A stretch of DNA of 64,000 nucleotides from NCBI GenBank assembly GCA_950295325.1, contig OX485803.1, positions 39,571,554 through 39,635,553 on the forward strand. Direction: 5' to 3'. The position numbers and the translations under genes are program-made. Source of the stretch: Polytrichum commune (lineage: Eukaryota; Streptophyta; Polytrichopsida; Polytrichales; Polytrichaceae). Below are positions 9,930 through 60,316 of this stretch, in pieces. The notes under the pieces are model-generated. The model ran no database searches. It was not told where the DNA came from and saw only the letters and a program-made list of their open reading frames with translations. The stretch's first letter is position 1. Every line of letters begins with the position of its first letter.

Positions 9930-11520
9930 TTAGTACGACACTCGTTTATATGACACCCTTAATATTACGACACATTTTTGCGCAACCAAACTTTTCAGTT
10001 CAAAACTCCCTCTTTTATACGACTACGACACTCAATAATACGGCATTTAGAATCTCCGTTTTGTCATATTAAAGAGGTAATTAATGTTAAAATTCCTTTC
10101 ATCTATGTTATGTACATCTAAAATACATTCATTTTCACTTGGGAACTACTTGGGAACTTGATGATAATTAGGGATACTAGTGTAGAATGGACTTGGTTAG
10201 GGTTAGAGTGGTCTCCTTCCTATTCTTTTGTCAGATTATGAGCCTGAAGATGTTTACAACATGGATGAGACTGGATTGTATTTTAGAGCACATCCTAATA
10301 AAACATTAGCACCAGGGAAGGTGAAGGGTCGGAAGTTACATAAGGAGCGTGTAACATTTGCTCTCGCTGTTAAGTCAACTGGGACTAATAAATTGAAGTT
10401 GCTTGTGATTTATACGTCCAAGCAACCACGATGTTTTGGAAGGTGGGAGCCTCATGAGTATGTTCGGTGGCACTCAAACATAACAACTTGGATGAAGGGG
10501 GATATATTTGAAGCTTGGATTTTGCAGCTCAACAATCAATTCAAAGGCCAAAATCAGAAGGTGATTATGATTTTGGATATTGCATCTTCACATGTTGTTA
10601 GCTCTGCCAAAGTTGGTAAGTCTCGTGGTTTTTCAACCTTGGAATTGAGCAACATGACTTTGATATTCCTTCCTCCCAATGTTCCAAGCATAGTTCAACC
10701 TTTGGATCAAGGTATAATAGCATCTTTTAAAAATTTAGTACAAGAATAAACTTTTGTAGTGGGTTTTATCACAATATGATGATGCTACATTGAAGGACTT
10801 AAGGAAGGTGGTGGCCAACATCAGACATGCTATCATGTGGAGTTATGAAGTATGGAATGAGATAGATGCCTAGATAGTCAGGAATTGTTGGAGGATGACG
10901 CGTATATCACCTACAACACGGAATGTTGATTTTGCCCTAGTTGATGAAAGCGGAAAGAATAGAATGCAAGAAGAATCAAATGAACTTGGTGCTCTGATTT
11001 CAAAGTTGTGATTGGGTGATGATGAGATGTCAATTGAGACTTACATTCAGATGGAAAGGGAAGAGAACACTGAGCTAGAATTGAGTACTAATGAGTTGGT
11101 GGATGCTGCTTTGGGACTCAATCATGCACAAGGCTTTGATATTAATGTTGATCTACATTCAGTAGATGTGGATGATGTTGCTCCACCTACAGTAAAACTT
11201 AGTGATGCTAAACGTCATGCATCATTGTCGTCTAATTTCTTATTAGATGACTCTTAACATCTTGGTGTTAATGAAATTACCGATTTTCAAAAGCTAATAA
11301 AAAATTTAGACAAGATGATAGTTGCTAACTTGGGGTAGTTCTTGAAAATATTTGTATTTGTTTGGAGTTATAAGGTATTACTTCATACAATCTACACAGC
11401 TTAAACTCAGTGTATATAACTTTAAGCTCCTATTGCTTATGTTTTGGTATTCCCTCAACAGTACGACACTTTTACGCCATTTGTCATGTTAACGAGAAGG
11501 CGGCACCTCGATAATACGCC
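9930..11520 (+). mobile_element. Pogo/Tigger-like DNA transposon (decayed)
   Basis: A transposase pseudogene (10213-11340) is flanked on both sides by sequences rich in TACGACAC-type motifs (AGTACGACACTCG near 9940, ATTACGACAC near 9965, AGTACGACAC near 11460, ACCTCGATAATACG near 11506), resembling pogo/Tigger ends. I could not fix exact TIRs or a TA duplication, so the borders are approximate. Confidence 0.55.
10213..11340 (+). pseudogene. Pogo/Tigger (DDE_1, jerky/CENP-B-type) transposase pseudogene
   Basis: Catalytic core of a cut-and-paste transposase. The first 540 bp are open and contain the three catalytic aspartate blocks: NMDETGLYF, MILDIASSH (usual form LDNAxxH) and PLDQGII, plus the typical LPPNVPSIVQ stretch. 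At about 10745 the frame shifts; the continuation reads WVLSQYDDATLKDLRK, with in-frame stops near 10873 and 11009, then VDDVAPPTVKLSDA near 11170. That C-terminal part matches the relic at 18420-18670. The N-terminal DNA-binding region is not recognisable. Clearly inactive, but only a few lesions old. Confidence 0.85.
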
Positions 11521-21600: not shown

Positions 21601-22132
21601 CGCCAGCATAGGTCGAGTTCTTTATTAGAAGCACTATTTTGGAGCTGCTTTCGTAAGAAATTTTTCTGAAGTTTCTTAGGAGTGAATAAACCTAGATAGT
21701 GACCCATGCTTTAGAGAACTTTGCTTCGATCTTTTTGAAATTTTTTTCGGAGATAAATGAAGGCTTGACAAAGCTCGCTCTTAAGTGGCCGATCTAAGAA
21801 CTTCCACAATTGAAAGCGTAAATTTATTCTAATATAGGCAACAATTGATATGATGCGTTCCTCTCATTGCCAACTTCTTTCCAAGCATGTAAGCTGTTTT
21901 TCTTTGTGAACTAACAATTCATCAATTCATTAGAGGCATCAGAAGCCACCTAGAAACATACGTTTTAAAAGGGTACTAGAGGTGCCACCCCGGGACAATG
22001 ATAGTAACGAAACAGTAGTACATGTCTGCATATCTTGGAATATGTGGTAATGTGTGCTTCATCTGAATCAAACTTAGGCTGAGAAGAATCAATATACTCA
22101 TGATGATCCATGTTTCTACTTTAATTAGGTGG
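18671..22132. other. Intergenic region upstream of the tandem kinase gene
   Basis: AT-rich to about 20250, then a GC-richer island at about 20440-20900. A frame at 20415-20666 (LAYKVIDDRSTAGSMKKFG...) has some coding look but no family match. A 5'-UTR exon for the kinase could end at a GTGAGC donor near 21499, pairing with the AG acceptor at 22127-22128; this is inference only. Confidence 0.4.
21022..21102. repeat. Nested inverted repeat (hairpin)
   Basis: Perfect 15-bp arms TACTGAACATGAAAT (21022-21036) and ATTTCATGTTCAGTA (21088-21102) enclose perfect 10-bp arms AAACCGGCAG (21038-21047) and CTGCCGGTTT (21062-21071). An asymmetric 16-nt bulge separates the two stems on the 3' side. May be a small MITE or a transcribed hairpin. 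Confidence 0.75.
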
Positions 22133-25100
22133 ATGCAAAACGCAATGTCAGACTACGTGAGCCAGATCTGCGAGGTCGTTCATTCGATCCAGCAGAAATT
22201 AGTTGCCGGAGCGGCCGGGACAGGTGTGATTGTGAACCAACTCCAATCGTTGCACATGTTTGGGAAGTTCAAGGCTGTGAGTGTTGCGCTTGTGGAGCAT
22301 CGGCCTTTCTTCTTGAGCCCAAAGTGGCAGTTGATTTTGAAGGATATTTTTCGACTCGTGACGGAAGCACACAACATTGTGGAGGAATGTGGAATCGACC
22401 AGGCCGGAGATTCCTTTGTGAACACCGCGCTCCTACAGGTGGACAATGAGGAAGCATTTACAAATCTGCTTGGGAGGTTGAAGTCTACCATAGGCCTAAT
22501 TCTCGATGACGAACTAGTCTGCAATGCTCATCATCAACGCATCTACGATACTTTCCAGAAGTTGTGCGCAAGCGTCTGTCCACCTAACAAAACCGCCTTC
22601 AAGTATGACCACGAGCAGTTACTTGTGAAGCTCAAAGACATGGTTGCAGCGAGGATCGGCTTGCAACAGTGGAATAAAGGTCAAAGCTTTCGGGCGGTAC
22701 ATCACCTGATCGAGAAGGTTAATCGCATCCTTGAGCGCAAGAGATCTGAACTGCCTGATCAGGTTGAGGCAGTCGACAGCAATCATGTGACGGAGCCAGA
22801 GTTAAATTGTTTCGTCACGGAGGATTCGCCACTGATTTTGAAAGACAGCGATATCGTTGGTGGGGGAACCAGCGGGAAGGTATACAGAATAGAGTGGTCG
22901 GGGTCAGAGTGCGTCATAAAGAAGTTCTGCTACGCGGTAAGGGAAGAAGAGGCCAAGCTCTTGGTGTCTGCAAACCATCCCAACATCGTCCGAGTGATCT
23001 GTTGCTTGCAAGACAGCGGAGGGACACCCATCGGAATTCTCATGGAGTTGATGCCCATGACGCTCGATAAATTCATTAAAATAATGCACCACCACGACCA
23101 ACACGAAGATGAATCTGACGTGCGTTTAACAACTCGGGTTTTACCATCAGCACTTCCTTTTTATTTCTTATGGCTATTTTCTAATTTTCTTAACTAGTTT
23201 CACTGTTGATATCTGTCCAATAGAGTTATTTGTAAAGTAAAGCAGAGGAAACCATGGGTCACTGTATCTTTATGACTGGGGGTAGTGCCCTCAAGTCCCA
23301 CAATGCCTTCCGCTTAGTGCCTTGCTCTATACATAATCATATTCTCCTAATGAATTTGATATTGGAAAAAACTCAAAAAGATGAATCCAGATTATGTCGT
23401 TTTTGCAATGGTTGATTTTTATATTCACCGGAACCAATAAATAACAAAGAAAATATAAGAAAATATACTATGTAAGGGTCTTACTTGATATGATTAGACA
23501 ATTCACAAGCCTTATTAAATACTTGAATATCCTATATTATGCGCAAATAATAAAGTTTTTAATTATATATTTGCTAAGTTATTATAATTACAACTTCATG
23601 CTTTATTATGGAAGTCTTTTTATAAGTTATCATCTGAACCTTATTTTGACGGTGCCCTTGCTTATTACACAGGAGTACTCACCACGGAGTTTCACGCACG
23701 AGGCGATCATCGACATTCTGTGGCAAATCGCGTCCGCCATGAAGTACTTGCATCAGCGGGGGATTGTGCACCTGGATTTGAAACCGTCCAACATCCTGGT
23801 GTCTCCGAGCCGAATCCCCGAGCTCGCGAGGGATGGGTATGTTCGCGCCAAACTCATCGATTTCGGGTGTGCGAAGCGGACCGACAACTCAAATGCTCAG
23901 TACTTCAACATCCCGCATTTCGGCACGACTCGGTACCGTGCTCCCGATCACCTGACCTTCACAAAAATTGATCCTGAAAAATGTGATGTCTACAGCTTCG
24001 GAATATTGTTTTCGGAGGTGCTTACGGGCCAAATCCCGTTCCCCGACATGGAGTGCAGCAAAATGAGATTCAGTGTCGGGAAGAATAAAGAGCGTCCCGC
24101 ATTGCCAACGGACTGTCCACAGGATCTAGCAGCGCTGATCGAGAAGTGTTGGGCCCATAAACCCAAGGATCGTCCCGATTTCTCCCAAATCTGTGATGAG
24201 CTCTTCAGGGTGAGAGCTCGCCTTCTGATGCACCAATTCTTCCGAGCTCCAAGCCGATCAGCACGGTCGTCGGAGGCCTTGATAAGGGTGAGCCGCAGTC
24301 GACACGCACAAACTCATTGCGATCCAATCGACTTGAGTACAAAACGAGCAAAGTTGCAGGAGTTTCTCAAAAGCGTGTCGGCGAGGCTGCCAAGCCCATC
24401 GCCCATGTCCGTCAAAAGGTAATTAGCTCACGACCACTCCCCGCCAAGTGATAACAAACATCATCTCGTTTTCAATTGAAAATCGTCAACTCACGATTCC
24501 TTAATATTTCTAATTGTAGTACATATTCTTACTATTCCGGTTATTGTGCGTTATGATTTTCAGTTCTAGCTGAAAAGTCCTAGCCCCTATATGCACACAT
24601 GCGTTATTCTGGTAATATGCTCCCTTGCCCTTCATACTCTACTAATCTATTTAAAACAAATAACAAACCATTGTAGAATGTGAAATTTTCATCTTGTTTG
24701 GTGACAATATGGTCTTCAAAATTTAATCATAAGGATCTAATTAAGGTTTGATGGCGTTAGAAATTCTCACGAATAAAATTGATAATTTTTATAATGTCAA
24801 CCCAGGCCGCACGATGCCTCTATCCACTACTGGTGCGGCGATGAAGCATTCACTTACCAAGAGCTTTATGTCGCCACCCACGGCTTCCACTCGCAGAACA
24901 AACTTGCCACTCCAAAGGAGCACACATGCAAGTACGGTAACATGTACAAGGGAACCCTCAAAGACACGGTCACACGTGTGGCGGTGCGCAAGATCCCAAC
25001 CACAGTCATCGATGTCGAGTGCGTCCGGCGGATAAGTCACATTCAACACCCAAATGTTGCCGGGCTACGAGGATGGTGCAATAACCGAGAGAATCTGCTG

Positions 25101-26745
25101 TTGGTGTACGAGTACATGGAGAAAGGGAACTTGAAGAGCATGTTGCAAGATGACCTCGAGGTCAAGTACTTGCGGTGGGTCGTCCGGCGCGACATCCTCA
25201 AGGGTGTCGCGTCGGCGGTGCAGTACTTGCATGACGATTGTGGGCTCGTGCATCAGGGCGTGAAGGCCAGCAACATCTTGCTTGGATGGGATAACAATCC
25301 GCACCTGCGAGACTCGGGCCTGGCACTCCTTGTGCCACAAAATTCAATAAAGCGGAGCAGGTCGATTTCGAAGAAGCGAGGCCACTTGGCGCCGGAGCTG
25401 TGGCACTACAAGGAGCACACGAAAGAAACCGACGTGTTCAGCTTTGGCAACCTTATTTTGGAGGTGGTGTGTGGCGACGTCCACCCCGCGCATCTTCCTG
25501 CTTCGAGCTCCTCAAACGGTACTGCATTCAAACCCACAAAAGCCGTGGAAATTCATCACCTCTCTCGACTATCCAGGTTTAAGGTAGATGGTGCCCTTAA
25601 TGAAAGGGATACATCTACCTATATCCTAGATTTCCGTGAATTCTTATATCACAAATTTGATGAGCAAACATAATGGTTGCAAAGTGGACGTTTAGATAAA
25701 CCCCATCATTATTACCGTTTGTGTCTAAATTAGGGAAGGTGCACGTTTCCACATGTGAATTGTTTAAGACATAAATTGAAGCAATGTTTTGTGATGCAGT
25801 CTGACCAGGGTTGTCCCCCATCCTATCCTTTTTGTCCATCACCGTCCCAGGAGGGGACCGAGATCGGACAAGGGTAATTATTTTTCCAACGTAGAAAAAT
25901 TGATCAACCAAATGGTGTGATTAGTCTACGTCGAATTTGCAAGTCAGGTTACTCCAGGTCAGGTCGACCATTGACCTCCCAGTTCACTTGCCGGCAAAAA
26001 TTAATAAATTTGACTGGTCATCTAGTCTTGTCAACCTGAATTTTCAGGTTGACTGATCGATTACAAAAATTTCTACAGATTCTCGGGTGTTGGTTCTGGC
26101 TGAGGATTTGGTTTTAGCAAGCTCTACTTTACACAAATGATCGCCTAACCTACCCCTGCTCTTGATGCTCCAGATTATGATTGCCAGCTCAGGAAGAGTC
26201 ATGGCTGCTCCCGGCGGTTCCTGCACGACTATGTGTGGGAGTCGTACACGAAGCATGGCAACCTTGGAACACTCGACATGTGGGTCAAAAAGATCGCCGA
26301 CCCTCGCTTGCACGGCAACTTTGAGGTGGCCGATGTGCAGACAGTGCTCATGCTCGGCTTGTGGTGCTGCCACCCGTACTTGAGCATGCGGCCATCCATG
26401 AGCGTCGTTCACCAACTCTTGAGCGCAGATCGGATTTATGATACCCCACCAAAATATCATTTTCATGGGAAAAAGGAGTGTAGAAGATCCTGCCCTCCAT
26501 TAGCTCATCGTCCCGAGTTCACGAAACTGTATGATCAAGTCCCACCCAAGAAGCCAGAGGTCTGGTATGAGCAACCCGGACCACCTGAGTGCAGCAGATC
26601 CTCCCAGGATCATACACATGATGATCATGTCGTTCCTGACAATCATCAAAAGGAGAAGGCCAACTTTGACTGCCCATGTCTTTCAATTTCCACCGCACTC
26701 TTTGTGAAATATGAAAACTGTCTACAACGTCCTCGATTTGCTTGA
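22133..26745 (+). CDS. Tandem kinase protein: helical N-terminus + non-RD kinase + LecRK-like pseudokinase
   Basis: Exons 22133-23119, 23673-24418, 24806-25518 and 26174-26745 join in phases 0, 2 and 1 to give 1005 aa. Residues 1-225 are helix-rich (QICEVVHSIQQKL...) and unassigned; a HeLo/MLKL-type bundle is a guess. Kinase 1, about 235-505: VGGGTSGKVY loop, VIKKF lysine, HLDLKPSNIL (HRD Arg replaced by Leu, so non-RD), IDFG, APD for APE. Kinase 2, about 590-900, begins FTYQELYVATHGF as in lectin receptor kinases but has no glycine loop, VAVRK for VAVK, HQGVKASN for HRD and DSG for DFG, so it is a probable pseudokinase. It lacks its own start, signal peptide, lectin or membrane domain. The fusion depends on donor AAAAG/GTAATT at 24418 and acceptor CCCAG at 24805, whose phases agree. 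Start 22133 follows an AG acceptor at 22128; 22145 is possible. Role inferred: signalling or immunity. Confidence 0.72.
26030..26053. repeat. 24-nt near-perfect palindrome in kinase intron 3
   Basis: GTCAACCTGAA (26030-26040) and TTCAGGTTGAC (26043-26053) are exact complements separated by 2 nt. Direct copies of the word AGGTCAGGTCGACC lie nearby (about 25957). Function unknown. Confidence 0.6.
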
Positions 26746-30100: not shown

Positions 30101-32640
30101 GGACTGTTGGAAAAGAACGGGGAACAAATTGCTTGTGTGCAAGGGAGGGATCCGATTCACGACGCATGTCCAGATCACTTCCCAGTAATCTAGGCTGGCG
30201 CCACCCCACAGAAAGAATGTCCTTGAGCCAGTCCGTAACAAGCTCCACGTCCTGTGCACCCCAAAACCCCTCCTCCGCCATGTTGTGGCTGAAGGTTAGG
30301 TAGAATCGCCCGATTCCAATTCCATTTCCATTCGTCAGTGACTTCATTCTGACTCCAAATCTTTCTCCCCAAAGAGGACAGTAGCAGCTAAGTACTTGAA
30401 AGTGAATACTGCTGATATTTTTCTAAGAAATCATCAAAACACAGCTTATTGGTTTGGCTGAGAGATACAAAACATCATCATAAGCTCAACACTATCCGCT
30501 TTGATTTGGGGAAGGGCTATGTACCCACTTTAGATTGCAACTGAAGGAAACCTTGACTTTCATTGACCCTATTTAACTCACAGAATGTTGAAAAACCATG
30601 AATTCAGTTGCATTCACCTCCTTATAGTTTTGCATTTATATTTGATTCCATCCGGCAACGACCCAATTCTGACACCAAATGTTTCCCCTAAGGAGGATAG
30701 CAGCAGCTACGTACTTGAAATGAATACTCTTACTGATTAATTTCTACGGAATCATCAAATACACAGCTCGCTGGTTTGGTTGAGAGATACAAAACAGGAT
30801 CATCATAAGCTCAACAATATCCGCTTTGCTTTGGGATAGGGCTATGTACCCACTTGACATTGCAACTAAGAGATTAATCCTATCGAAGTCCCACAATGCA
30901 AAGAAAATCATGAACTCAATCACATTCACCTCCTTATGGACTTGCAAATTTTTGAGCTTTTTCGTGAGATTTCTCCAGCACATTCAAGGTCTACCTTAGG
31001 TGTACAATGTTGTCCAGGAACATCGATTAACCACTTAATATGAGCTTCAGATTGCAACTGAAAGACACCTTGGCTTTCATTGCTCATATCGAAGTCCCAC
31101 AATGTAGAAATCCCATGACCTCAATCGCATTCACCTCCTTATGGACTTGGAAATGTTTTGACCTTTTCCGACGAGTCAGATTTCTCTAGCACATATAGTG
31201 CTAGTTATAATTTTCTCCTTATTAGTATTGAAATTTTCCGTGAGATTTTTCCAGAAAATTTAGGGGGGCTTACCTTAAGTGCACAATCTTGTCCAGGAAT
31301 GTCGATTTGGGCGATCGCCATTTCACGAGGAAATCGACCAAGCGGCGAGACTCAGCGTGCAAGTCCTTCTCTTCCAAAAAGGAAATTGGCTGTCCACTGT
31401 CCACTCTTGTCACCGTGGGAGGGTAGACCACCATTAGCCCTCCAATTTCCCAAAGCAGACGCTGCGCCCAGTACCCTCGAACAATGTCTGCCGCTTTGGG
31501 GCTAACAGTCACGGGAAGCATCAAGCCCCAAAATCCTGCGGAGTGAAAAAGTGTGTTAAAAGCATTGCAAGGCGCCATGGTGCCATGCGGAAGTGCAACA
31601 CGCGGTGCAGTGGTGTCGAAGTTGATGTCAATTGCATCGTCCTGCGATCTTCGAGTGTTGTAAAAGATGGAGTCCACATCCGGTAACCCATTCGCTAAAC
31701 CTTGTTGAATGATCTGGTTTCCAGGAAAAACCTCGTTATATGAAATGTCAGGTGCAATCTGCTGCACCGATTCCAAAGGAAACCCTCGCGGCCACACCGA
31801 CTTCTGCCCAAAATGAATGAACGGATTCACCACCGTCCGGTTGGGGATGGTCCGATACTGAAGAATCGGGTCCCGGTTCGACTTCTGCCCTTGAAGATTC
31901 ACATCAAACACCATGTCCAAATCATCTCCTAAAACGGAAGCATTCTCATCAGCATCATAGATTTTCTGTGCACCATGTTGAATTGCAAACAGATATCCCA
32001 CATTCTTCCGCAAGAACGAATTGTCAGGAACATGTGCGTTGATCCGGTAGCCTAGCTCCACCTGCGCATCAAGAGACAGAAAAATTGCTCCTGCAACTTT
32101 CCAATCGGCCGGAGAGTTAGATCCCCCAACCGCAAGAACTTGCCATCCACTAACCCGTGTTAATGCTTGCACTTGCATTGTTGGAGGACCCAAAGCGGCC
32201 ACCACAATCCACTTGTCTGTCTTGGTAGTTTTATATCGTCCCTTATCCACCCTCGGTGAAATGTGCTTCAAGTTCAAGTCGGGGTAAGGGATCTGTTGAA
32301 GCTCGCTGGCGACAGATTCGAGGCACAGGAGTGTCTTCTCCCCACCTTGGTTATGCATCACCAGAAGGATTAGAGCGCTCAGAAACACGAACACAACAAT
32401 CACCACCTTGGGCAGATTGTCCATCACCCAAGTGCCAAGCGACCCACCATTTCCACCGCTGCTCTCCGCATCGTAGCCACCGAAGACACTCGATGGGGGT
32501 CTCATCGAGTGACGGCTATATGGCTCCTCAACTTCTTCTTCATCTGACTCATGTTCGATGGCGGCGGCAGCCTCTTCCGTTACGTTCCGAGAGCCGTTTC
32601 CTACCCATGCTGCTTTGCCGTTTGCCTGTTGGACTAGCAT
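27162..32640 (-). CDS. STL: STELLO-type probable glycosyltransferase (DUF288), Golgi
   Basis: Homologue of Arabidopsis STELLO1/2, Golgi type II membrane proteins that bind cellulose synthases and are needed for assembly and export of cellulose synthase complexes. Exons on the minus strand: 32640-31274, 30288-29869, 28921-28795 and 27647-27162, phases 2, 2 and 0, total 2400 bp, 799 aa (Arabidopsis about 770). The start MLVQ matches the family start. Acidic cytosolic N-terminus, membrane helix VVIVVFVFLSALILLVM near residue 80, then DKWIVVAALGPPT, GWQVLAVGGS, GYLFAIQHGAQKIYDADEN (acidic DxD-like site), NRTVVNPFIHFGQ and SVWPRG. Exon 3 encodes LPKIFEKYPMAEGFVV; exon 4 ends with GDPSLADIIE. A strong donor (CTCTCG/GTAAGTGG, exon side ends 33454) hints at a 5'-UTR exon. 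Introns 1 and 2 hold tandem duplications. Convergent with the kinase gene, 416 bp between stops. Confidence 0.95.
29497..29846. repeat. Tandem duplication (about 175 bp x2) in STELLO intron 2
   Basis: 29497-29675 and 29676-29846 are diverged direct copies sharing GTGTTCAAGAATGT/GATGTTGAAGAATGT, CACCCCACC/CATCCCATC, AAATGCCTTCAAAGGAACAC/AAATGTCTTGAAAGCAACAC and GTGGAAGAAGC. The second copy ends 23 bp from the exon 2 donor. Confidence 0.65.
30330..31260. repeat. Tandem duplications in STELLO intron 1 including a relic of the exon 1 end
   Basis: Blocks starting near 30347 and 30663 share about 220 bp (GAGAGATACAAAACA, CATCATAAGCTCAACA, ATATCCGCTTTG or close, GGGCTATGTACCCACTT). A CATTCACCTCCTTAT block recurs near 30616, 30927 and 31130. 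The segment 30980-31025 (CCTTAGGTGTACAATGTTGT) resembles the real exon 1 end and donor at 31270-31310 (CCTTAAGTGCACAATCTTGT), so the unit once included the exon border. Confidence 0.65.
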
Positions 32641-34075
32641 TGCTTCCCAAACTTATGGCTACTTCTACGTCTTTGCAAACTTCGGTGCACAAAATTCTAT
32701 GTCATCTCCGCCTCCGATGTTGTTGGCATGTGGTCGGTCGCAGCCCATCGACAATGATCATTGTAAGTAAATAGCTATGAATGTACCATGGATGCAGGTA
32801 GCCATGGCGTTGGTCGCCAGATCGATTTTAGCACCACACAGTAGTTTTTGAGGCCATGACTAACTCCAAGTGCAGGAATGAATTTGCCAGAAATTGACAA
32901 AACACTTCTCACCGTATGCCAGACTCAAGGTTTGCTCTCTTAGAGTGTCACGCCGCATTTCGGCTATGGTTTGCATGTACCCCTGTCATGCCTTGGCTCT
33001 TGCATCAGGATAATGTTTCACCTGGGGAAAGAAAGTACCTAAATTTGGTAAGAACAATGCCACATCTTCCAGCGATCGGGAAAGGAAACAGCGACCGCGC
33101 ATTCGACAAAAGACGAAGCGTAGGGTCACAGATGCACGCACAGAAAATATCAAACGAGCTTCTTATAGAGCCTCTTCAACTCCCTAGGAAGATCTCAAGG
33201 AAGGACAATGGACTCACAACTACAAACCCACAAATTACTCGACGCTCGATCATCATCAGGATGAGGAGGATACACGGTGCATGAAGGTCTAAGCGTAACA
33301 CACTCCCATAACAATTACTCCAACCATGCATGCAGCTGGAAAGGCGGCCGGGTACCAATCAAATCAATGCCTGCGGACTCCCAGGTCACTATAAATTTCT
33401 ACCACCTCTCCCCAACCAACAGCCAAATTCACAGCATCAAGTACTCCACTTACCGAGAGCCCGCACAAAACACTGAGAGAGATTCCACTCCGCCAGCTAC
33501 ACTAACGCCATAGCCACCCAAAAGCTGCCACCGTCCGCACCATGCACACTGCAGTTTGCCAAACTGAGCCCATTCGGAGACAGCAAGCAGCAGGACCCCA
33601 ACAAGCTCCGCTCTTGCAAACTGCAGGCAGCAGGAATCAATGTTGGAAAGGGTTAAGCTTCCAAACCCCAAACGCAAAACCACGCCAATCTCTCCTCCTG
33701 TCCCACTAAGTTAGATAGCTAGCTCCCAAGACTCCCTCACTCACACACAAGCTGCAACCAATCAACCTGGCAGTGACATTGACACAGCAGCAACTTGAAG
33801 CTCAATGTGTGGGAATAGCAGGCACAAATGAAATGAGCCTGGGGGAAGAGCGGGTGGGCAATCAGTGGAGTGGCGATGGGGCCCCCAGGGACAAGAATAA
33901 TGCACCAGTGTGGTTTTAACTTTGCAAAGGGAGACGAGACGAGACGAGACGAGAGGAAGAGCCTGCAACAAGGACAATATGACGCTCTGCCATCTCCCTG
34001 TCAGTCAGCCTGCCACCCGCTTCAGTGTCCCTGCCCAACGTAGATGTGCCTTATTTGATCACTCGCGTGCCTTAA

Positions 34076-57596: not shown

Positions 57597-58728
57597 ATGG
57601 AAGGATACTTTGTTGATGAGGAAGCACGTAGAGAGTCACAAGGAGAGTGGTCACAAAATTCAGAGTGGATGCAACGAGTGTCAAATCAAAATTTCAGAGA
57701 GAATCAAAATTCGATTTCACGAATGTTGCAAGGTCCGAATGTGCTCCCCAACACTTTTAGTGTATTTCATCCTCCTCCACTTCTGAACATGACAAATTAC
57801 AGACAAGGAGGACAGTTAGATAGTCATCATGTTATAGAAGAAATGTTTGAAGAAAAAGAGGAAACTGAGGGAGCAGCAAAGAGCCAACTAGCAGGAAGAA
57901 AGAGGGGGCGTGTTACAAAAGAATCAACAAAGAAGATGAAGAAAGGCGACAAGAGGAATACAATCGAAATTGGCGAATCGGAAGAAGAAGAAGAAGAAAT
58001 GAGCAGAATCAAATGGAAGGATTTTAAAGTGCATCACCTGATAGCAATTCGCGGGGAGATGGAGGAAGAATTCACAAAAACAGCAAACAAGCAAGGTAAT
58101 ATGTTTTTCAAATTTTTTTGTAATTTGATTTTTGGTAAAAGGTAAATGTGGTAAAAGGTAAATATGGTAAAAGGTAAAAGATAAAAGGTAAACGTATGAT
58201 GTTGGCCGTATGATGGGCCCGTAGAGGCCTTGGCCTTAGCCGTAAGCCCCTATGCCCCCCCCCCCATAGTCGGGCGGCCGCTGCCGCGGGGGCTTCGAGT
58301 TTTGTTACTGTATTTAACAAAAGTTTGTCGATGTCGGGAATGGAACCCGCGTCTCCTCTACCCTAAACCTCTATCCTTACCACTACGTTACACTCCCTAC
58401 TTCGATACCAATGACGTCGCTTATGTCCTTATACTACACTTCAACTATGCTGAATTTTTATTTTCAGGGTCAATTTCAACATCTTTTAGCTTCTGGTTTG
58501 GAGTTTTTAATGTGTTTTCCTGTTGCTACTGTAGGTACCAACTCTTGGCTCAAATTGCAGATTCGAATGGTCGCTGCAATCAAAGGTTTCAACCGTTCCT
58601 GGTTATCGTGCAAAAAAAAATACAAAACCATCTTAAGTGAATACAGAACTGACAAGAGAACAAATGAAATTTATGCCGTAGTTTGTATTGCCACAAACTT
58701 TCTGCCAATGTTTCGTGCATCGTTGTAG
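57597..58728 (+). CDS. PIF/Harbinger ORF1, Myb/SANT-like DNA-binding partner
   Basis: Partner protein that in this superfamily binds DNA and helps bring the transposase to the nucleus and element ends. Exons 57597-58095 and 58535-58728 join in phase 1 (AAG CAA G/GTAATA ... CTGTAG/GT ACC), 230 aa. The start is the first ATG after TTTCCGCAGAA. The N-terminal half is polar; a basic KRGRVTKESTKKMKKGDKR stretch could be a nuclear signal, followed by an acidic EEEEEE run. The SANT/trihelix-like part reads IKWKDFKVHHLIAIRGEMEE / KGFNRSWLSCKKKYKTILSE / YRTDKRTNEI. The last 140 bp overlap the transposase gene on the other strand. The intron hosts a SINE-like insert. Confidence 0.82.
58134..58405 (-). 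mobile_element. tRNA-derived SINE-like element in ORF1 intron
   Basis: On the minus strand the head contains TAACGTAGTGGTAAGG (58390-58375), close to a pol III A box, and CGGGTTCCATTCCCG (58349-58335), close to a B box, at tRNA-like spacing. A GC-rich body follows (58200-58320), then a tail of TTTACC repeats (58193-58134). No target duplication could be fixed. Alternatively it is a tRNA pseudogene fragment. Confidence 0.6.
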
Positions 58729-60022
58729 CTTCCCGCAGAAGGTCATTAGCCTTCTCATTTTCTCTCAATAAAAATAAATTTGTCTCTTCATCATTTTCTT
58801 CATCTGCAATTGGCATATCTTCCCTAGCTAATATCCTTCTTCGCACTTCCGCAATTCCAGCTCTTTCTCCTCGTAATTCACTGCCTTCTCCTACTTCACC
58901 CTCGCTAATTCTTCTAGATAATTTATTTTCTGCTTCAATAATCCAATCTTCTTCTATACCTTCGTTATTGACAATGCATATATTGTGCAATACTATACAA
59001 GTTGCTACAATATCAGGCATATTCCTCAAAGGTACCTCAGATCGTTTCATTATCAATCTCCATCTGCCCTTCAAAATCCCGAACGCCCTCTCTACGCACA
59101 TCCTCGTCGAAGATTGTATGAAATTCCAATTTCCCTCTTTCCCGGATAGCGCTGTTTTTCCACCCTTAAATGGACAATACATCCAAGGTCGTACCGGATA
59201 TGCCGCATCTCCTATCAACTTGTATGGCTGGAATTTACCCTCAATACAAGCTCGTCCAATTTTTGTCACTTGAAATACTGCCCAATCGTGAAGACTCCCT
59301 GCCCACCCAAACTCATAATCCCAAAACATGCAATCAGGTCCAACAATTCCCTGCAAAATCGCTGAATGAAATGACTTCCTACAGTAATAATCTTCTCCCC
59401 CGAGTATAGGAGCTAAAACAGGAATATGTGATCCATCTATCGCACCTATAATGTAAGGTATTCCGTGCAACTTTTCAAACTTTGAAGCTAAAACCCTAAA
59501 CTGTGATTCACTTGGAGTTTGCACGAAAATTGGTTGAAGATGCTTTCTTACGGCTCTGCAAAATTCTCTCACTATTATAGATATTGTGCTTTTATGTACT
59601 CCATACAAATCACCTATTGTTTGCAATCCATCACCACTACCCAACCGATGCAATGACATCGCTATCCTCTCTTGCACCGGTACCGAAACCCTAAAACGAG
59701 TATCCTCTTTCTTCAAATAAGGACCCAACCTCTCACACAAGAACCTAAATGTCGTATATGTCACTCGCGTTCGCTTTCTAAATTCTTTCTCCGTCCACGA
59801 ACCTAATAGCAACCGGTCCACAAAACCTAACATCCTCTCTTGACTCCATATGTTCCTCTCTTTACGTCTTTCGTAAACCACGCTCAAAATTGCAAATTTT
59901 TCCCATTCTCCTTGCAAAATCAGTGTTTGAATGCCTACAACATTCTTCACAAGCATGTACAAAAATATGTACAATCCTAGTAGCACAACTAGCTTCCTCC
60001 TCCTCTCTTCCATTTCGACCAT
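58589..60022 (-). CDS. PIF/Harbinger (HARBI1-like) DDE transposase
   Basis: Cut-and-paste transposase, single open frame of 477 aa from ATG at 60022. N-terminal hydrophobic/helical start, helix-turn-helix GDLYGVHKSTISIIVREFCR, then the DDE_4 nuclease core: first Asp in IIGAIDGSHIPV, second Asp in KLIGDAAYPVRPWM, Glu in RMCVERAFGILKGRWRLI; a typical NMPDIVATCIVLHNICI follows. All three catalytic acids are present and no stop interrupts, so it is probably functional. The last roughly 45 residues (HKFHLFSCQFC...) are antisense to ORF1 exon 2 and may not be native; a splice before them is possible. Acts with ORF1. Confidence 0.93.
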   Translation of the reverse strand: MVEMEERRRKLVVLLGLYIFLYMLVKNVVGIQTLILQGEWEKFAILSVVYERRKERNIWSQERMLGFVDRLLLGSWTEKEFRKRTRVTYTTFRFLCERLGPYLKKEDTRFRVSVPVQERIAMSLHRLGSGDGLQTIGDLYGVHKSTISIIVREFCRAVRKHLQPIFVQTPSESQFRVLASKFEKLHGIPYIIGAIDGSHIPVLAPILGGEDYYCRKSFHSAILQGIVGPDCMFWDYEFGWAGSLHDWAVFQVTKIGRACIEGKFQPYKLIGDAAYPVRPWMYCPFKGGKTALSGKEGNWNFIQSSTRMCVERAFGILKGRWRLIMKRSEVPLRNMPDIVATCIVLHNICIVNNEGIEEDWIIEAENKLSRRISEGEVGEGSELRGERAGIAEVRRRILAREDMPIADEENDEETNLFLLRENEKANDLLREATTMHETLAESLWQYKLRHKFHLFSCQFCIHLRWFCIFFCTITRNG

Positions 60023-60316
60023 ACTTGCTGAATTTTAAGGCGAAAAGAAGAAAAACCTAAGTGAGAAGATAAGTGAAGGCATGTGTAGACAAGTGAAGTC
60101 AACAAAATGGTCAAACTTTGTTTTTTACTAAAACTGCCCTTTTTGGGCTTTATATTAAAAAAATCAGCACATCCACTCCTTGCCGCATGGTCATTCCTCT
60201 TGGTCCACATTCGGTTTACACCTAGTGAGGGGCCCAACGGCTTTGTAAATCAATTTTTTAATAACTCGGACCATGAAATGTAGACCATGAACTCGTACCA
60301 AAGAATAAGGCATCTT

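Follow-up and report, generated by a model that had tools for sequence, protein, structure and literature searches.

Does this moss locus encode a kinase and a dead kinase in one protein, or do two neighbouring genes lie end to end? The question is raised by a 64,000-nucleotide stretch of the Polytrichum commune genome (assembly GCA_950295325.1, contig OX485803.1, positions 39,571,554 to 39,635,553; hereafter the window, in whose numbering positions are given). In it, a helical domain and a kinase (K1) are followed on the same strand by a second, degenerate kinase domain (K2) that resembles L-type lectin receptor kinases (LecRKs). Tandem kinases are resistance proteins of cereals, and an earlier note made from the letters of this DNA had proposed a candidate tandem kinase protein (TKP) here. 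Our analysis predicts that K1 and K2 are probably joined in one fusion transcript. The strongest support for this prediction is comparative and comes from paralogous loci in the same genome.

A predicted splice junction between the two kinases

The stop codon of K1, TAA, lies inside a donor (caaaag/GTAATT), and an acceptor ending at 24805 (AACCCAG) restores the frame. Both halves of this predicted junction, to which the earlier note had drawn attention, were recovered in our check of the sequence, together with the coordinates given there: the four plus-strand exons translate without an internal stop into a product of 1005 amino acids (aa). All three introns are GT-AG. Exon GC content is 0.49–0.55 across the K1/K2 gene, against 0.32–0.42 in its introns, and the intron separating the kinases has a value of 0.336, between exons of 0.535 and 0.551. 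A match of phase alone has a one-in-three chance.

K2 is without a usable start of its own, since its first in-frame Met (24942) stands at or beyond the remains of the glycine loop and no ATG exon with a GT[AG] donor joinable in frame to 24806 was found in 24422–24770. A separate start between the K1 stop and K2, which by the earlier note would have spoken against the fusion, was not found in usable form. Its description of K2 as having no start, ectodomain or membrane helix of its own also stands, given the late first Met and a full-length product of 1005 aa in which no membrane helix was found (best 19-residue Kyte–Doolittle mean, 1.22). K2 as a separate LecRK gene was rejected, with no start, ectodomain or transmembrane segment in reach. 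No plus-strand open reading frame (ORF) of at least 110 aa occurs between 10749 and 22067.

As a control, 45 related ORFs were scanned for AGGT[AG] no more than 12 nt from their stop, and two of them, L002 and L004, had it. Use of the L002 site (GAG/GTAATT) would splice out the stop, as at the K1/K2 gene, but in L004 the exon would still contain it. With one or two cases among 45 controls, a donor arising at a stop by chance is uncommon, not impossible. Downstream of the donor-like site of L002, no kinase domain was detected within the fetched locus.

The N-terminal half is an MLKL-type module

The earlier note had left the N-terminus unassigned, and here it needs correction: the domain is an MLKL/DUF1221/RPW8-type helical bundle, common to a large family in this genome and to one nucleotide-binding leucine-rich repeat receptor (NLR), L015. 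Searched by themselves, the window exons yielded no name for the domain in Pfam or NCBIfam, and the window copy gave no N-terminal Pfam match even at E 1. Among the 32 members of a family alignment (A1), Pfam at E ≤ 1 found DUF1221 in 9, MLKL_N in 6 and RPW8 in 5; the lowest E-values were 5.2e-5, 4.7e-4 and 1.9e-5, respectively. C86, F109 and D159 of the helical domain are invariant in this alignment, and W95, N35 and Q38 nearly so.

An AlphaFold (AF2) model of exon 1 had a mean predicted local distance difference test score (pLDDT) of 80.1, with helices from H8-27 to H184-205. In a Foldseek search of the Protein Data Bank (PDB), its top match was the AtMLKL3 tetramer 6ka4 (E 1.1e-6, probability 1.00; 360 columns with gaps, query TM 0.50, root-mean-square deviation 8.1, identity 17%), and AtMLKL3 was the sole PDB match below 0.001. 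This structural match and the weak Pfam matches in relatives place the N-terminus in the MLKL/HeLo type. Together with K1, it very probably forms an MLKL-type module.

Spliced K1 is matched by Pkinase at 3e-41. HLD stands in place of HRD, in agreement with the non-RD assignment of the earlier note; the glycine loop, Lys, alpha-C Glu, HLDLKPSN and DFG are intact, and K263 and E273 are invariant in alignment A1. Kinases can be scored on eight key residues; read from alignments, K1 keeps seven of them, the change being APE to APD. K1 is therefore probably an active non-RD kinase, as judged from these residues.

The searched genome is a 408-Mb assembly of 64 contigs, seven of which (42–78 Mb) total about 406 Mb; a set of seven chromosomes would suit Polytrichaceae. 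Exon 1 gave at least 97 matches in it, including itself, and the best-scoring other match was 27% identical. We read 44 other distinct K1-module loci, in 26 of which the module ORF is intronless and 550–600 aa from stop to stop. By sequence, K1 belongs to a large family in this genome whose members mostly lack introns. Six loci (L009, L010, L011, L030, L034 and L035) continue after the module into a receptor-kinase-like pseudokinase. Three (L012–L014) carry the helical-kinase module twice in one uninterrupted ORF of 1137–1227 aa, and one (L015, C6:797000-804500) has a 1477-aa open frame with the module, NB-ARC (5.7e-34) and a long run of near-identical leucine-rich repeats (LRRs), that is, an NLR of the PNL (PK-NBS-LRR) type. 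In L031, L036 and L047, a second module ORF with its own ATG after TTCCAG follows 163–211 bp downstream. The remaining 31 loci are single-module, and some are broken (for example, L007, L024 and L029). L012 and L013, at C1:10.9-11.03 Mb, and L014, at C2:0.51 Mb, are tandem kinases by duplication.

Kinase 2 is a LecRK-type pseudokinase

Pfam recognizes spliced K2 as Pkinase (1.4e-26) and finds no kinase match in exon 4 alone. Residues 16–324 of spliced K2 (309 residues) align to 6cth_A, named a ConA-like lectin kinase, at 7e-39; as the alignment runs across the exon 3/4 join, intron 3 is supported by homology. K2 has lost its glycine loop, and VAVK, HRD and DFG have become VAVR, HQG and DSG, so that the degenerate LecRK-like kinase described in the earlier note is borne out, with APE, DVFSFG and RPS retained. 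On the alignment-based scoring used for K1, it keeps four of eight residues (N171, D184, E208 and R280) and has lost G52, K72, E91 and D166. By these residues, K2 is a catalytically dead kinase domain.

K2 has no close copy in the genome. Ranked by identity across the greater part of the query, its top two relatives there are L049 and L050, at 43–44%, and 13 of the 16 best-scoring non-self matches sit in open frames of 748–841 aa. Identity to four LecRK-type kinases is 36–39% over the aligned domain. K2 is assigned from its sequence to the LecRK type on its kinase domain, not on a lectin domain. The open frame at L049 (C2:47893800-47895700) combines a LecRK-type kinase with a hydrophobic stretch and a plastocyanin-like ectodomain (Cu_bind_like, 3.2e-10).

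Such losses could also mean that K2 is a LecRK pseudogene in decay whose position downstream of K1 is fortuitous, its fusion being accidental or non-functional. The destroyed glycine loop and catalytic residues, the missing ectodomain and a weakly constrained tail would fit this explanation; the tail is that of exon 4, where the GC content at third codon positions (GC3) falls to 0.40–0.45. Divergence and open frame argue the other way. With Poisson correction, the length of the K2 branch comes to about 0.67 changes per site, or about 49% of residues, and K2 has no stop. In simulated neutral decay, which covers stops but not frameshifts, runs at 45% aa change had a mean of 6.7 stops, and the stop-free share of 300 runs per level was 0 at 45%, 0.7% at 35%, 2% at 25% and 6.3% at 15%. 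GC3 remains 0.72, compared with 0.63–0.66 in three live relatives, and the retained motifs and the length of the domain alignment likewise argue against decay. We consider the pseudogene explanation very unlikely. The open frame probably argues against neutral decay over a long time, though not against a loss in the recent past.

For the six relatives that combine the module with a pseudokinase, the ratio of nonsynonymous to synonymous substitutions (dN/dS) over 15 pairs averaged 0.88 in the helical domain, 0.55 in K1, 1.70 in the linker and 0.74 in K2. From these sequence-based values, constraint in the six relatives is weak to moderate.

Paralogous loci carry the same pair of domains

The six relatives have the same domain order as the window gene. 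In four of them (L009, L010, L011 and L035), the module and the LecRK-type pseudokinase are read in a single frame without interruption; the start of the L030 module is broken by a TAG, and in L034 a stop lies inside the pseudokinase. The six differ from the window gene in having no intron through the pair and a far more degenerate K2. The proposal of a kinase and a LecRK-type pseudokinase in one gene is thereby supported, with the qualification that other loci also have the combination. The best match of the second domain of L009 is 6cth_A (1.3e-8); its structural model is poor (pLDDT 55.6) and matches receptor-like kinases at 1e-7, as supporting evidence only.

Downstream of the 900-aa ORF in L009 (reverse strand), L010 and L011 lie short open frames with degenerate receptor-kinase-like pieces, for example, NPIGFCVEEGEKILIYRDMET and DNIHVTRNGDVMFGLQF. 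These kinase-like remnants, a further difference from the window gene, suggest that the three loci comprise the module, a pseudokinase and the remnant of a third kinase. L031, L036 and L047 were tried as parallel fusions and rejected, as their second ORF has its own ATG.

We compared the loci in trees. A careful K1 tree of 24 rows, drawn from the 48 of a quick tree, placed the window K1 as sister to L009, L010 and L035 with support of 90/92. K1 trees omit ORF fragments with insufficient coverage of the module (L007, L024 and L029 are absent from the 48-row tree). After removal of L009, L010 and L035 from the 24-row tree, the window K1 stood at the base of a 13-row group; after removal of the window K1, these three loci lay next to that group and L020/L023, at a fork that was not resolved. 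The placements are consistent with kinship to L009, L010 and L035 and are not proof of it. In an 11-row K2 tree that omits L011 and L030 (near copies) and L034, the window K2, the K2 domains of L009, L010 and L035 and the four LecRK-type kinases grouped together against BAK1, PBL2 and FER (100/99.6), with no further resolution inside this eight-row side.

Several observations weigh against a single gene or a shared origin of its kinase pair. At the junction, one of the 45 control ORFs (L002) also has a stop-bypassing donor-like site, AATAAA at 24772 could serve K1 polyadenylation, and K1 ending at its own stop would be 578 aa, the usual family length, so that the stop could be real. Three introns are unusual, K1 relatives and most of the best K2 matches being mostly intronless. 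Among the paralogs, the second kinase of L009 went undetected by Pfam at E 0.01; the K1 grouping is unstarred and joins long branches; and the quick tree has the window K1 nearest to the pseudokinase-bearing loci without support. The window K2 is only 19% identical to that of L009, and one shared fusion event is not shown by it; nor does the K2 tree either reject or show such an event (p-AU 0.51; alternatives at 0.16 and 0.17 not rejected). Lastly, the high dN/dS and the two broken loci among six fit fast immune evolution but also relaxed constraint.

Read as two neighbouring genes, the locus would hold an intron-bearing MLKL-type kinase with its end at 24422 and, downstream of it, an independent gene or gene fragment derived from a LecRK. 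The usual length of K1 alone favours this arrangement, and L031, L036 and L047 provide examples of an apparently separate module gene closely downstream. However, K2 lacks a usable start, a transmembrane segment and a joinable exon in the gap; 387 bp leaves little room for a terminator and a promoter; the K1 stop sits in a donor, which has a nearby equivalent in one or two of the 45 controls; and the closest K1 relatives bear the same kinase pair. We regard two genes as unlikely. For the fusion, the simplest account of these sequences would be one old event with later divergence and gain or loss of introns; two separate fusions are possible. The idea that the window K2 is a near copy of the L009-type K2 was rejected at 19% identity.

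Comparison with known systems

Plant MLKL proteins and MLKL_NTD-kinases (AtMLKL3, wheat Pm13) have the helical bundle, brace and kinase in common with the window gene; in them, the kinase or pseudokinase after the brace is the last domain, whereas the window gene continues into a second, dead kinase of the LecRK type. The MLKL_NTD-kinase Pm13 functions in resistance (PMC10951266). Moss PNL NLRs, a class that PMC3352924 describes as dominant in mosses and not amplified from liverworts, begin with a helical-kinase module as do the window gene and L015, but carry NB-ARC-LRR where the window gene has its pseudokinase; in the spliced 1005-aa product, Pfam found neither NB-ARC nor LRR. The presence of a PNL-type NLR, L015, fits a moss genome. 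N-terminal kinase domains of kinase-NLRs caused mild ion leakage, with a modest, variable response for one from P. patens (PMC11218826). LecRKs share with K2 the kinase domain, for which 6cth_A is the best PDB match, and have a legume-lectin ectodomain and a membrane helix; K2 lacks the ectodomain, the helix and the catalytic residues.

The tandem kinase or kinase-pseudokinase proteins WTK1/Yr15, Sr62 (PMC8956640) and WTK3 combine a kinase and a pseudokinase from different kinase families, as the window gene would, whose two kinase-fold domains in tandem, one with degenerate catalytic residues, make it a candidate tandem kinase. According to PMC6170490, a 2018 survey, L-LPK domains occur among TKPs, one Physcomitrella TKP is listed and 92 TKPs have no additional conserved domain; compared with those 92, the window gene adds an MLKL-type bundle and its K1 is of the PNL/MLKL family. 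Since Lr9 and WTK7-TM, fusions with further parts, are also called tandem kinases, the extra bundle bars the window gene from the 2018 set only. The contrast with cereal tandem kinases drawn in the earlier note holds in that the relatives nearest to the first half are MLKL kinases of plants and PNL modules of mosses rather than WTK1/Yr15; it does not extend to the combination itself, which is present in the paralogs too. Our literature search, confined to open-licence papers, found among the matches listed no paper describing a tandem kinase with an MLKL-type bundle.

Proposed mechanism of the fusion protein

The locus likely encodes one cytosolic kinase fusion protein, probably immune, with an MLKL-type executioner and kinase half and a pseudokinase half serving as sensor or regulator. 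An immune function is likely by analogy, given the large module family, the use of the module in a PNL-type NLR and the resistance protein Pm13. We propose that the LecRK-type K2 would restrain the MLKL-type module and serve as a sensor, or as bait, for a pathogen factor directed at receptor-kinase domains. Engagement or modification of K2 would release the module; K1 might then signal, and/or the helical bundle, of a membrane-active type, might oligomerise at the membrane. Acting by itself or together with an NLR, the protein would trigger cell death or defence. Among tandem kinases, at least WTK3 works with an NLR, WTN1 (PMC12839863).

A bolder version, which we hold to be doubtful, is a self-contained immune device in which K2 senses the pathogen and directly gates the built-in MLKL-type membrane-permeabilising executioner, with no NLR needed, in contrast to WTK3. 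It would include, just as tentatively, a lineage that kept one executioner module and exchanged its sensor, which would be NB-ARC-LRR in PNLs, another copy of the module in L012–L014, and a LecRK-type pseudokinase here and in the six paralogous loci. Alternatively, the fused protein may exist but serve receptor-kinase signalling or growth. Not every pseudokinase fusion has to act in immunity; nevertheless, the large module family, the PNL-type NLR and Pm13 (PMC10951266) point to an immune role, and we judge a non-immune role to be unlikely. If the immune fusion is real, MLKL, kinase-NLR and tandem kinase architectures would be tied to one exchangeable module, present in several copies in a non-flowering plant, and self-contained sensor-executioner action of tandem kinases would become testable.

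Gene layout and other features of the window

Table 1. Parts of the predicted K1/K2 gene in window coordinates
Feature	Position	Strand	Remark
N-terminal helical domain of K1 module, residues 1-208	22133..22756	+	MLKL/DUF1221/RPW8-type bundle plus brace
Exon 1, helical domain and kinase-1 N-lobe	22133..23119	+	Open frame; donor GTGCGT at 23120
Intron 1, 553 bp	23120..23672	+	Pkinase match 239-505 spans the join in spliced K1
Exon 2, kinase-1 C-lobe (HLDLKPSN, DFG) and linker	23673..24418	+	Pkinase 3.3e-34 in exon 2 alone
Intron 2, 387 bp, between kinase 1 and kinase 2	24419..24805	+	Apparent stop TAA falls within the donor at its start
Exon 3, N-lobe and some of the C-lobe of the LecRK-type pseudokinase (VAVR, HQG, DSG)	24806..25518	+	Pkinase 7.7e-27
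Intron 3, 655 bp, within the pseudokinase domain	25519..26173	+	Spliced product aligns to 6cth_A across the join
Exon 4, end of pseudokinase C-lobe and tail of about 100 residues, stop TGA	26174..26745	+	6cth_A match reaches query residue 324

Directly 5' of the K1 ATG, window 22110-22132 holds a pyrimidine-rich stretch and TTAATTAG followed by G; this may be the end of a 5' intron, and the true start could lie further upstream. Rfam gave no match at gathering scores. On the minus strand, a 460-aa frame at 31270-32652 had no Pfam match at 0.001; it may resemble STELLO-type glycosyltransferases. Elsewhere in the window, Pfam identified an alternative oxidase exon at 1163-1843 (AOX, 2.7e-75) and transposase genes at 10207-10749 (DDE_1, 7.2e-24) and 58589-60034 (DDE_Tnp_4, 1.4e-26).

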